Origin: Saprospiraceae bacterium
GTDB lineage: Bacteria; Bacteroidota; Bacteroidia; Chitinophagales; Saprospiraceae
Length of the DNA: 35,748 nt
Assembly: GCA_026983735.1 (NCBI GenBank)
Contig: JALSTN010000264.1
Location: 1-35,748 of the forward strand
Direction of reading: 5' to 3'
The notes beneath the pieces are model-generated. The model ran no database searches. It worked only from the letters and a program-made list of their open reading frames with translations, and was not told the origin of the DNA. Below, one piece after another: positions 15,910 through 18,292 of this stretch. How positions within the stretch are numbered: position 1 is the first letter of the stretch; the number at the start of each line of letters is the position of its first letter. A program made the position numbers and the translations under genes.

Positions 15910-16929
15910 CTAATAAATGGGGCAGGTCTTAAAATCCCTTATCGGCCGCACATGCACTATTCTATAGATTAAAGCAAATTCAGGTCCTCCTAATTTCCCA
16001 GTAGCACGTTGAAAATCAGATATATTAACATCATAACTCAACCCAGCATACCACATACTCCACTCTGCAGCGACTTTGGGTATAACTGCATCTTTATGCC
16101 GAACAGAAAGACCGAGCAATAAGGCAAACTCTTTGCCTCGCTTCTGATTAAAAAATAATTTGCCATATCCTCCGTAAACCAACTCTTTATATGGGCCTTG
16201 TGTCTGGTACAACACATGCGCTAAGATGTCCAATTGTGAAAGTAGTGGCCACTCTGCTAAAGCGTGATAGGCCAATCGCATATCCAAAGGGTAATTTGTA
16301 GTACCAGCGTTAAAGGACTGGTTAGGACGATTGAGGTGGGCTGCCCCAATACCCAAATTTAGCTTTTTACGATAACTTTTTTGCCATTGATAATTGACCC
16401 CGCCTGAAAAATCAACGTAAGATCGTGCCAAGTTTTCAAAAGCTTCACCGCTGGGTAAAGAGGGATCTACCACATCGCCATTCCACTGCGAATCCCAAAC
16501 TAAGTCATCGGTTTTAAATCGCCGTTGGGCAAGGCCCAGCATAAGTCCTGCACTAATAAAATGTGTTCTGGATAATGGATAAGTATAGGCTCCTGAGCCA
16601 CCAAAATGGACCAAACCCAAACGAGAATCTCCTGCTTGGTCATAGTTAAATATCGCACCTAAAGACCAAAAACCTCGCATGTGCTTGGGGTAAATCTTTG
16701 TATCTGCATGCAAAGAACCAGTGCGATATCGAGCCAAGTGATTCGTGTACCATTGGCTTCTTAAATTGAGCCCCACACGTGTATCTCCATTAAAAATCCC
16801 GGTCATCGATGGATTTAAATTAAGTGGGGAAGTGTAGAACTGTGAGTAATGCAAATCTTGGCCATGAATACTAAATGTCCATACGCCAAGTATGATTGCA
16901 AAAAGGATTTTAAATCGGATTACTTTCAC
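15910..16929 (-). CDS. PorP/SprF family type IX secretion membrane protein
   Basis: The 339-aa outer-membrane beta-barrel protein has a signal peptide (about 1-23, ending 'SIHGQ') followed at once by the family signature 'DLHYSQFYTSPLNLNPSMTG', then alternating amphipathic strands to the C-terminus. PorP/SprF proteins help T9SS export and anchor specific cargo; SprF serves the type B adhesin SprB in Flavobacterium. The gene precedes a PorE-like gene and a type B adhesin on the same strand, so it is probably dedicated to that adhesin. The start is GTG at 16929; no ATG is available before the signal peptide. A candidate promoter lies at 17019-17052. Paralogues are usual in this phylum, so no gene name is assigned. 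Confidence 0.93.
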   Translation of the reverse strand: MKVIRFKILFAIILGVWTFSIHGQDLHYSQFYTSPLNLNPSMTGIFNGDTRVGLNLRSQWYTNHLARYRTGSLHADTKIYPKHMRGFWSLGAIFNYDQAGDSRLGLVHFGGSGAYTYPLSRTHFISAGLMLGLAQRRFKTDDLVWDSQWNGDVVDPSLPSGEAFENLARSYVDFSGGVNYQWQKSYRKKLNLGIGAAHLNRPNQSFNAGTTNYPLDMRLAYHALAEWPLLSQLDILAHVLYQTQGPYKELVYGGYGKLFFNQKRGKEFALLLGLSVRHKDAVIPKVAAEWSMWYAGLSYDVNISDFQRATGKLGGPEFALIYRIVHVRPIRDFKTCPIY

Positions 16930-17161: not shown

Positions 17162-17309
17162 ATTTCATATGTTTAAAAATTTATAATAAATTGAAAGTAA
17201 TTGTATTACAAATTTTCTGCACCTATGGAACCGCTTCGCTCTCACATGAATTTTTTTAATTATCTTTCTGTGTGAATTTATAATTAATAAAATTCATGTT
17301 CGTTTCATA
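17162..17309 (+). repeat. Structured AT-rich intergenic repeat, copy 1 (148 bp)
   Basis: It opens with ATTTCATATGTTTAAAAATT and closes with AATTCATGTTCGTTTCATA. The right half contains an inverted repeat with 19-base arms, 17245-17263 and 17280-17298, matching at 18 of 19 positions around a 16-base loop. The left half has a second, looser inverted repeat from AAAATTT to AAATTTT. Between them is the only GC-richer segment, with ACCGCTTCGCTCTC. RNA or cruciform hairpins are likely. No coding frame is seen. Confidence 0.8.
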
Positions 17310-17330
17310 GAGCTAAACGCTCACTTTACC

Positions 17331-17474
17331 ATTTCATATGTTTAAAAATTTGTACTAAATTGTAATAAATGTATTACAAATTTTCTGCAGCTATGTAACC
17401 GCTTCGCTCTCTCATGAATTTTAATCAATTTTGTGTGTGAATTTATAATTAATAAAATTCATATTCGTTTCATA
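17331..17474 (+). repeat. Structured AT-rich intergenic repeat, copy 2 (144 bp)
   Basis: A direct repeat of copy 1 after a 21-bp spacer, with the same opening, the same central ACCGCTTCGCTCTC and the same closing AATTCATATTCGTTTCATA. Differences are mostly small indels and substitutions in the hairpin arms. The left inverted repeat is tidier here, the right one less perfect. The copies are diverged, so the duplication is not recent. Confidence 0.8.
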
Positions 17475-17515: not shown

Positions 17516-18292
17516 ATGACCCTAAAAACAATTCTTATCACAGGAGCGACATCAGGGATTGGACGAGCAACGGCGGTTAACTTTGCCACGCAAAAAAACA
17601 ACCTTATCCTTTTGGCTAGACGGGTCGATAGATTGCAACAAATCAAAGAAGCTCTTCAAAAAAAACATGATGTTAAGGTAGATATTAGAGCACTGGATGT
17701 AAGAAACTTCGACGCTTTGAAAGAAGGGTTAAGAGATATTTGGGAAGAAGAGATAAAAATAGATGTATTAGTCAACAATGCAGGCTTAGCCTTGGGATTG
17801 TCTGGATTTGAAGACGGTAAAATAAGCCATTGGGACCAGATGATTGACACGAATATCAAGGGTCTTCTTCATGTAACCAAAATCGTCTCCAAAGGGATGA
17901 AACATCGAAAAGATGGACACATTATCAACCTTTCCTCCATTGCCGGCAAGGAAGTTTATCCCCTTGGAAATGTTTATTGCGCCACCAAGCATGCTGTGGA
18001 AGCGCTTACCAAAGGAATGAGAATTGACTTATCTCCATATAACATCAGAGTTAGTCAAGTAGCTCCGGGTCATGTCGAAAACACTGAGTTTGCAAGCGTG
18101 CGGTTTGAAGGGGATGAGGAGAGAGCTAGGATCTACGAAGATTTCAATCCTGTTCGCTCTGAGGATATAGCGGAAATCATCTATTTTATCGCATCCAGAC
18201 CCGTACATGTCAATATACAAGATGTACTTGTGACTGGCACTCAACAAGCTTCAGCAACCATCATCCGACGTTCTGGTAGAATATTTGATTAA
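17516..18292 (+). CDS. SDR family NAD(P)-dependent oxidoreductase
   Basis: The 258-aa cytoplasmic short-chain dehydrogenase has the cofactor motif 'TGATSGIGRAT' (about 9-19), the structural NNAG (about 87-90) and the catalytic triad Ser141, Tyr154, Lys158 ('YCATK'). Its length and the 'EEEIKIDVLVNNAGLALGL' region resemble classical YdfG-like SDRs, which reduce 3-hydroxy acids such as L-allo-threonine with NADP+. The true substrate cannot be read from sequence. The last 35 residues ('RPVHVNIQDVLVTGTQQASA') are also typical of this subgroup. The ATG at 17516 lies 41 bp after the second structured repeat. The stop is only 4 bp from the stop of the convergent MscS gene, leaving no room for a separate terminator. 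Confidence 0.93.
   Translation: MTLKTILITGATSGIGRATAVNFATQKNNLILLARRVDRLQQIKEALQKKHDVKVDIRALDVRNFDALKEGLRDIWEEEIKIDVLVNNAGLALGLSGFEDGKISHWDQMIDTNIKGLLHVTKIVSKGMKHRKDGHIINLSSIAGKEVYPLGNVYCATKHAVEALTKGMRIDLSPYNIRVSQVAPGHVENTEFASVRFEGDEERARIYEDFNPVRSEDIAEIIYFIASRPVHVNIQDVLVTGTQQASATIIRRSGRIFD

Follow-up and report, generated by a model that had tools for sequence, protein, structure and literature searches.

A dispersed, hairpin-bearing repeat of about 140 bp found 3' of TTCAT in Saprospiraceae and other Bacteroidota, with an excess at start codons

Elements of the IS200/IS605 family (ISDra2, the group A IStrons and non-autonomous derivatives) are inserted at a T-rich pentanucleotide target present on their 5' side only, produce no target-site duplication and bear subterminal palindromes; according to PMC6006769, their guides sit 5' of the hairpin foot, and Y1 transposases of subclass 1.2 are generally without terminal structures of the IS200 type. 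REP and BIME sequences with a RAYT transposase are short, palindromic and high in copy number and are sometimes arranged in tandem (PMC3733652 and PMC6006769); the latter gives the Bacteroidetes TnpA-REP subclass 2.6 atypical flanking structures and no GT[AG]G foot. Classical MITEs are small, non-coding, dispersed and presumably moved in trans, and a small repeated element of a Bacteroidota genome is the Porphyromonas gingivalis MITE, by its title an inverted-repeat element holding a minisatellite (PMC4596501).

The repeat unit described here is dispersed and multiplied in the genome of a Saprospiraceae bacterium, where it stands directly 3' of TTCAT, ends in its own GTTTCAT and carries two conserved hairpins near its ends. 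It shares with IS200/IS605 the T-rich pentanucleotide on the 5' side, the lack of a target-site duplication and the subterminal palindromes, but its target is TTCAT, it ends itself in TTTCAT, its presumed guide (ATGnAA) comes after hairpin A, on the 3' side, when read on the strand that has the target 5', no tnpA or tnpB is present in any unit seen, and it shows no association with Y1_Tnp and an excess at start codons. Unlike REPs and BIMEs, it is about 140 bp long, with two hairpins and a defined TTCAT junction, it has no GT[AG]G foot by eye in the cross-genome alignment A3 (see below) and no unit was found at 30 Y1 loci; with subclass 2.6 the comparison is one of description and not of flank sequences. 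From classical MITEs it differs by having neither terminal inverted repeats nor an ordinary target-site duplication, and from the P. gingivalis element it is set apart by the latter's description. The unit is very probably a mobile structured repeat, and the chief evidence for movement is its dispersal to many unlike sites. As a whole, we favour the reading of a miniature mobile element, about 140 bp long, non-coding and non-autonomous, which is moved in trans and is IS200/IS605-like in target and ends. No earlier description was found in the open-access papers searched; ISfinder and subscription papers were outside the scope, so one may exist.

The window, that is, the whole stretch of 35,748 nucleotides analysed, is contig C264 of a source assembly of 3.32 Mb in 314 contigs. 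It holds two direct, diverged copies of one non-coding unit, with a PorP/SprF-like gene on one side and an SDR gene on the other:

15910–16929, minus strand: PorP/SprF-like gene, neighbour (context)
17163–17168, plus strand: TTTCAT, left junction of copy 1, whose TTCAT is read as the target that stays in the flank, on the base counts of 80 free left ends
17166–17227, plus strand: hairpin A of copy 1 with its foot (CATATG with CCTATG)
17169–17308, plus strand: moving part of copy 1, 140 bp, with GTTTCAT at its end
17225–17230, plus strand: internal ATGGAA of copy 1, an instance of ATGnAA that can pair with TTTCAT; putative guide
17230–17243, plus strand: central ACCGCTTCGCTCTC of copy 1; GCGAAGC on the bottom strand, a possible mini-hairpin
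17244–17299, plus strand: hairpin B of copy 1, arms 17244–17263 and 17280–17299
17303–17308, plus strand: TTTCAT, right end of copy 1, owned by the element on the right-end base counts
17309–17331, plus strand: spacer between the copies, 23 bp, with a small GAGC..GCTC palindrome
17332–17337, plus strand: TTTCAT, left junction of copy 2, in the context ACCATTTCATA favoured in the source genome
17338–17473, plus strand: moving part of copy 2, 136 bp, with GTTTCAT at its end
17345–17384, plus strand: hairpin A of copy 2, arms 17345–17361 and 17368–17384
17393–17398, plus strand: internal ATGTAA of copy 2
17398–17411, plus strand: central ACCGCTTCGCTCTC of copy 2
17413–17463, plus strand: hairpin B of copy 2, partly degraded
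17516–18292, plus strand: short-chain dehydrogenase gene, neighbour (context)

Copy 1 runs from the TTTCAT at 17163–17168 to that at 17303–17308, and copy 2 from the TTTCAT at 17332–17337 to that at 17468–17473. In a repeat search of the window the direct copies share two blocks, one of 82 nt at 80% identity and one of 56 nt at 91%, and the inverted repeats include 17244–17263/17280–17299 at 95%. The motif ACCGCTTCGCTCTC, allowing up to two mismatches, occurs twice in the window against 0.20 expected, a number reached in 1 of 100 shuffles; the bottom-strand heptamer within it has the form of the stable GCGNAGC mini-hairpin class. The left junctions of the two copies open frames of only 6 and 3 codons, and the pair has the appearance of two insertions into TTCAT sites close to each other. 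The initial annotation had described two diverged direct copies as a tandem pair; the copies, their coordinates, the inverted repeats and the central motif were correct, but the tandem is not an immediate one, 23 bp (17309–17331) separating the copies. It had also seen no coding frame, and we agree: a coding function was considered and rejected, since copy lengths differ by 1–4 bases and the reading frames are not maintained.

The further copies that it had proposed to look for in the genome are abundant, BLASTN with copy 1 giving matches on dozens of contigs. Genome-wide, the central motif with up to two mismatches is found 160 times and its reversed control 9 times, and the right-end pattern TTAATAAAnnTCATnnTCGTTTCAT with up to three mismatches is found 179 times and its reversed control never. 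At about 140 bp per unit, 179 right ends amount to roughly 0.75% of the genome. Within the 288 kb fetched around copies, 89 profile matches exceed 100 bits. Sub-variants have spread as well: at 8 places there is a long form whose hairpin B holds about 170 additional bp, the inserts being 95.9–98.2% identical to one reference insert. Elsewhere this insert is matched at one place (contig C26) at 82% and in pieces of 37–65 bp at four more, and in two of the eight places it matches its own reverse complement at 75–76%, so that it is an imperfect palindrome; it may be another repeat nested in the unit. The sequence matched on C26 (about 1.2–1.5 kb; loci L006/L099) contains a terminator-like palindrome and lies beyond a gene that by eye looks CreD-like. 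In one copy, on contig C35, the loop of hairpin B is inverted (by eye).

The ends of the unit were defined from nhmmer matches in these 288 kb rather than in the whole genome. Left ends were counted where the match started at model position 3 or lower, exceeded 50 bits and contained TTCAT, which gave 102 left and 90 right ends; 81 and 69 of these are free, and 80 and 67 long enough for base counts. The constancy of TTCAT is partly by construction, being required for counting an end; in relatives it is absent from 3 of 47 matches. The base before TTCAT is T in 72, A in 6 and C in 2 of the 80 free left ends, and T in 64 of the 67 free right ends. At the right end this T is in turn preceded by TCG (T, C and G in 65, 64 and 63 of 67), the G standing directly before TTTCAT, while the base that follows TTCAT is A in 59, T in 6 and G in 2 ends and the bases further out are free. 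Before the left TTTCAT, CCA is favoured in the source genome (C 35, C 44 and A 44 of 80). Hence GTTTCAT at the right end is owned by the element, and TTCAT at the left is target sequence that stays behind in the flank; with the right TTTCAT moving along with the element, the two junctions do not amount to an ordinary target-site duplication, and the junction counts describe insertion 3' of a fixed short target. The unit ends, TTTCATnnGTTTAAA and TCGTTTCAT, are not inverted copies of each other, so there are no terminal inverted repeats. Searches for an empty site gave no orthologous junction for the joined flanks in three other genomes of the genus of G015, none in G001, which has a 69% match to the left gene but not the right flank beside it, and no match readable as one when 65 joints were compared with the fetched stretches of the source genome.

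Twenty-one junctions of the ends examined serve two units at once. They are true head-to-tail arrays with a period near 140 bp, for example on contigs C276, C104 and C207. Seven contigs (C270, C271, C259, C224, C190, C135 and C207) start or stop inside or right at units; long arrays may therefore be collapsed or broken in the assembly, and the element seems to break assemblies. A short core common to both junctions, together with head-to-tail arrays, could also be produced by site-specific recombination, in which a tyrosine or serine recombinase would join a circular form of the unit to a TTCAT core, the hairpins serving as binding sites or as a folded strand. Integron attC sites offer a folded single-strand comparison. 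Such a route requires neither a Y1 enzyme nor a reverse transcriptase, and PF00589 was found in all six unit-bearing genomes searched; its presence says little, because all 14 control genomes have PF00589 too. Moreover, no inverted core-binding arms are seen by eye around TTCAT and the conservation of the target is chiefly one-sided, and we consider recombination unlikely, although it fares best among the alternatives.

Hairpins A and B form subterminal palindromes at both ends of the unit, with covariation. On the top strand, the cross-genome consensus reads target TTCAT, then nnG TTTAAAATTTTT as hairpin A, in whose foot CATnnn pairs with nnnATG, followed by ATGnAA, CCGCTnCGCTCTC, nCATGATATTTTTTAATCAT (hairpin B), ATGATTAATAAAnATCATGnTCG and TTTCAT. 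Folded as single-stranded DNA, copy 1 reaches z scores of –4.2 and –5.7 on the two strands, with none of 200 shuffles as good, and copy 2 reaches –1.6, with 17 of the 200 shuffles at least equal to it, and –2.5, with 2 of them, folding less well because part of its hairpin B is lost; in another copy of the source genome (L018) hairpin A is near-perfect and z is –10.2. Alignment A1 contains 26 copies of the source genome, including both in the window, and two from G015, and A3 contains copy 1 and 34 hand-chosen copies from other genomes; both were made with MAFFT, ignoring structure. The rows of A3 were found with a structure-scoring model and so lean towards the structure, and low-scoring, duplicate and odd-length matches were excluded from it. 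In A1, both partners are altered in at least one sequence at 12 of the 33 predicted pairs; for the specified structure such double changes affect 16 pairs and 53 cells, compared with 6.8 pairs and 16.9 cells after shuffling and 3–7 pairs and 4–11 cells when slid. In A3 they affect 18 pairs and 91 cells, compared with 10.1 and 27.5 after shuffling and 8–15 and 13–30 when slid, and 90.6% of cells are paired compared with 39.8–44.9% when slid; the shuffle figures are not probabilities, because the rows are related. In the foot of hairpin A, 90.7% of the A3 cells are paired. In 19 of the 35 rows the triplet that follows CAT is the exact complement of its partner, in the other 16 it is not, and the complementary pairs are of five kinds (ATG/CAT, CTG/CAG, GTG/CAC, TCG/CGA and GAG/CTC). 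Five of the eight foot pairs, those of TTTCAT with ATGnAA, are nearly invariant; a guide pairing between these motifs is thus neither supported nor refuted, as its five pairs hardly vary and the neighbouring triplet alone covaries. A second subfamily (in G288, G189, G316 and others) lacks the CGCTnCG part and has TTCAGGAACTCnCAT at its centre; a remnant is present in G001.

Copy 1 folds better than shuffles on both strands and copy 2 more weakly. The many compensatory changes in both hairpins, within the genome and between genomes, agree with what the initial annotation expected of a structured repeat family; the outcome that it had set against one, no further copies and no compensatory substitutions, did not arise. 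Its suggestion of a REP/MITE-like mobile repeat holds in kind, for the dispersed copies, the conserved ends and the compensatory changes, and, by the present tests, fails for a REP of the RAYT type and for a classical MITE with terminal inverted repeats and target-site duplication. Its alternatives, a small-RNA pair and a nucleoid-associated site, gained no support. In Rfam, for the window copies and the units of eight fetched loci there were only matches far below the gathering score, none above chance and none covering the unit as a whole.

Partial copies in the source genome, counted by eye with long forms and contig ends excluded, are 11 with the left end only and 3 with the right end only. 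After about 11 right ends comes a brief left-end-like stretch that then breaks off (likewise in L199, L201 and L203); these scraps may be remains of older, truncated units or may have been left by the way insertion works. Right-end scraps ahead of left ends occur too, for example on C305, and were not counted. The left end being 3' in gene sense, the partial copies and the roughly 11 right ends with scraps would suit a retro-element, in which unit RNA of the gene sense would be copied back at ATGAA by a reverse transcriptase, leaving 5'-truncated copies. The stem mismatches of A3 point the same way, A-C on the top strand (G-U in gene sense) prevailing by 36 to 20, but these counts are not independent and A1 shows the opposite, 31 G-T to 22 A-C (8 to 22 without the column pair 12–58). 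Selection for retaining the start codon would favour retention of the left end too; furthermore, RVT_1 is present in 6 of 12 unit-bearing genomes and was not found in the source genome, some of the genomes being 74–94% complete, and a retro-element is in our estimation improbable.

A mobiliser of the unit was not found when Y1_Tnp, RVT_1, PF00589 and recurrent neighbour genes were examined. The high copy number, the palindromes and the largely intergenic position would fit a RAYT (TnpA-REP) system in which the units are the REPs and the mover is the genome's Y1 transposase or one since lost, and the source genome does yield one Y1_Tnp gene (L096, contig C313, 1–2117), whose YILNQ motif resembles, by eye, subclass 1.2 as given in PMC6006769. 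This gene, however, sits among another palindromic repeat, with 21 AGCTCC/GGAGCT half-sites in 2,117 bp and no unit; the locus also shows apparent repeated scraps of its own Y1 gene. At E ≤ 0.001, Y1_Tnp was detected in 28 of 34 unit-bearing genomes and undetected in six, among them G288 with 38 right ends, and no GTAG/GGAG foot was seen by eye in the units; a REP system is thereby rendered more improbable still. At E ≤ 1e-8 there is no association between Y1_Tnp and units (17 of 26 unit-bearing genomes, 261 of 398 overall), and no unit at the 30 Y1 loci scored better than E 1.3. The ends of Y1 insertion sequences in relatives (L164/L191 and L167/L192 aligned, five loci by eye) have no likeness to the unit ends, and none of the loci fetched holds an autonomous copy encoding a Y1 TnpA with unit ends. 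Beside isolated ends on C78, C26, C180, C194, C114, C96, C66 and C190 there is no transposase-like ORF (by eye). Among genes next to units, 55 loci of relatives gave five clusters of 3–4 loci, some being one place counted twice and none a transposase (by eye), and the genes beside the units of the source genome, from their first residues, include no recurrent transposase. Movement as a single strand would be tied to the lagging-strand template; the strand of the units agrees with local GC skew in 31 of 77 cases (p 0.55), showing no bias in windows of a few kb, which are noisy, one mixed segment being omitted.

Units are found well beyond the source genome. A covariance-model search of 398 genomes of the family Saprospiraceae, with stricter filters and at most seven candidates scored per genome, gave a match at E ≤ 0.001 in 26. 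A pattern scan of a collection of species genomes gave 28 loci, several of them overlapping the covariance-model matches and all in Bacteroidota: Saprospiraceae, Chitinophagales, Crocinitomicaceae, Flavobacteriaceae, Galbibacter, Bacteroidales, Bacteroides sp., Prolixibacteraceae and "Bacteroidetes bacterium". Viral contigs scanned with one pattern gave no match. Across the 34 unit-bearing genomes, right-end matches range from 0 to the 179 of the source genome, followed by 38 in G288, 27 in G186 and 23 in G284, Galbibacter sp. EGI 63066 has 17, and the two genomes with none were detected by the covariance model alone. A copy close to the type of the source genome occurs in G100, of another genus, at 164 bits, and is either a transfer or a binning error. 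The family is a real one of structured miniature mobile elements in several Bacteroidota orders, with an excess at start codons; it is a mobile repeat recurring across a phylum, yet no mobiliser was found.

This excess concerns the left junction, which reads ATGAA on the bottom strand. Of 43 left junctions in relatives, 35 open an ORF, which has at least 106 codons in every case and in some reaches the end of the locus; the 43 derive from the 47 matches, from which duplicates and cut matches had been removed by hand, minus 3 without TTCAT and 1 repeat. In the source genome 23 of the 81 free left ends open an ORF of at least 100 codons and 58 do not. The control, meant to remove the purging of insertions inside genes, consists of ATGAAA sites that have no unit and are either intergenic or at a gene start; of these, 27 of 71 in relatives and 23 of 162 in the source genome are starts (Fisher p 6e-6 and 0.009), figures that depend on simple ORF calls and may undercount starts because of these and because sites with TTAAA just upstream were omitted. 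A looser control (51 of 217 and 49 of 545), set against 24 of 81 for the source genome, yielded stronger values than this stricter one and has the same limits. Statistically, then, units lie at ATGAA start codons in a larger share of cases than do ATGAAA sites lacking a unit, and at such insertions the gene retains its start codon while its native upstream region is joined to the ATGAAA of the element. All ten proteins scanned with Pfam behind start-codon units gave a match (CinA-type, SDR, POR, Usp, LytTR response regulator, lactamase fold, VIT, SprB/HYR, semialdehyde dehydrogenase and DUF1302), and in six the domain starts at residues 1–11, so that these genes most likely do start at the ATG of the unit junction. 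Through this excess the element would contribute to rewiring leader regions across unrelated genes.

A functional RNA leader, maintained by selection where the genes under its control begin, would account for this position, for the covarying structure and for the one site common to two species of a genus, where a unit precedes a LytTR regulator gene (L127, L129), but with ten scanned genes of unrelated kinds, 58 of the 81 free left ends of the source genome starting no ORF of 100 codons and no Rfam match, it is the least credible of the alternatives and can hardly be right. Translational bypassing was also considered, and dropped because most copies of the source genome precede no ORF. In Prolixibacteraceae bacterium JC049 (G428; L193, L194), similar units of a divergent type stand before FecR-like and TonB/SusC-like frames (by eye), and an ORF beside the unit L022 (contig C109, about 14.5–15.8 kb) begins MDSKRILGLDLGTNSIGWALIDYN, which looks like the N-terminus of a Cas9.

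Returning to a non-autonomous element moved in trans, a single-strand guide mechanism is conceivable, and we give it somewhat less than even weight. An enzyme acting in trans would recognise a folded single strand of the element, and the internal ATGnAA after hairpin A would pair with the target TTTCAT, forming five of the eight foot pairs. The same ATGnAA could equally pair with the right-end TTTCAT of the element, and one guide could thus place both cuts, after which the enzyme would join TTCAT to the element. Each right-end TTTCAT would be a fresh target, which would explain the head-to-tail arrays. The target-pairing foot makes this guide model testable. More tentatively, the units could represent a Bacteroidota-wide class of elements homing to start codons, with an undescribed mobilising enzyme of their own and a target choice written in the ATGnAA that pairs with the target and with the element's own end. 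As TTTAAACnnATG leads up to the target and ATGAAA stands at the other end in gene sense, such an element would rebuild the start region on both sides and might land before genes with little harm. Read in gene sense, the right end of many copies, though not of all (for example 17303–17308), gives ATG AAA CGA nCA TGA, a possible leader ORF of four codons.
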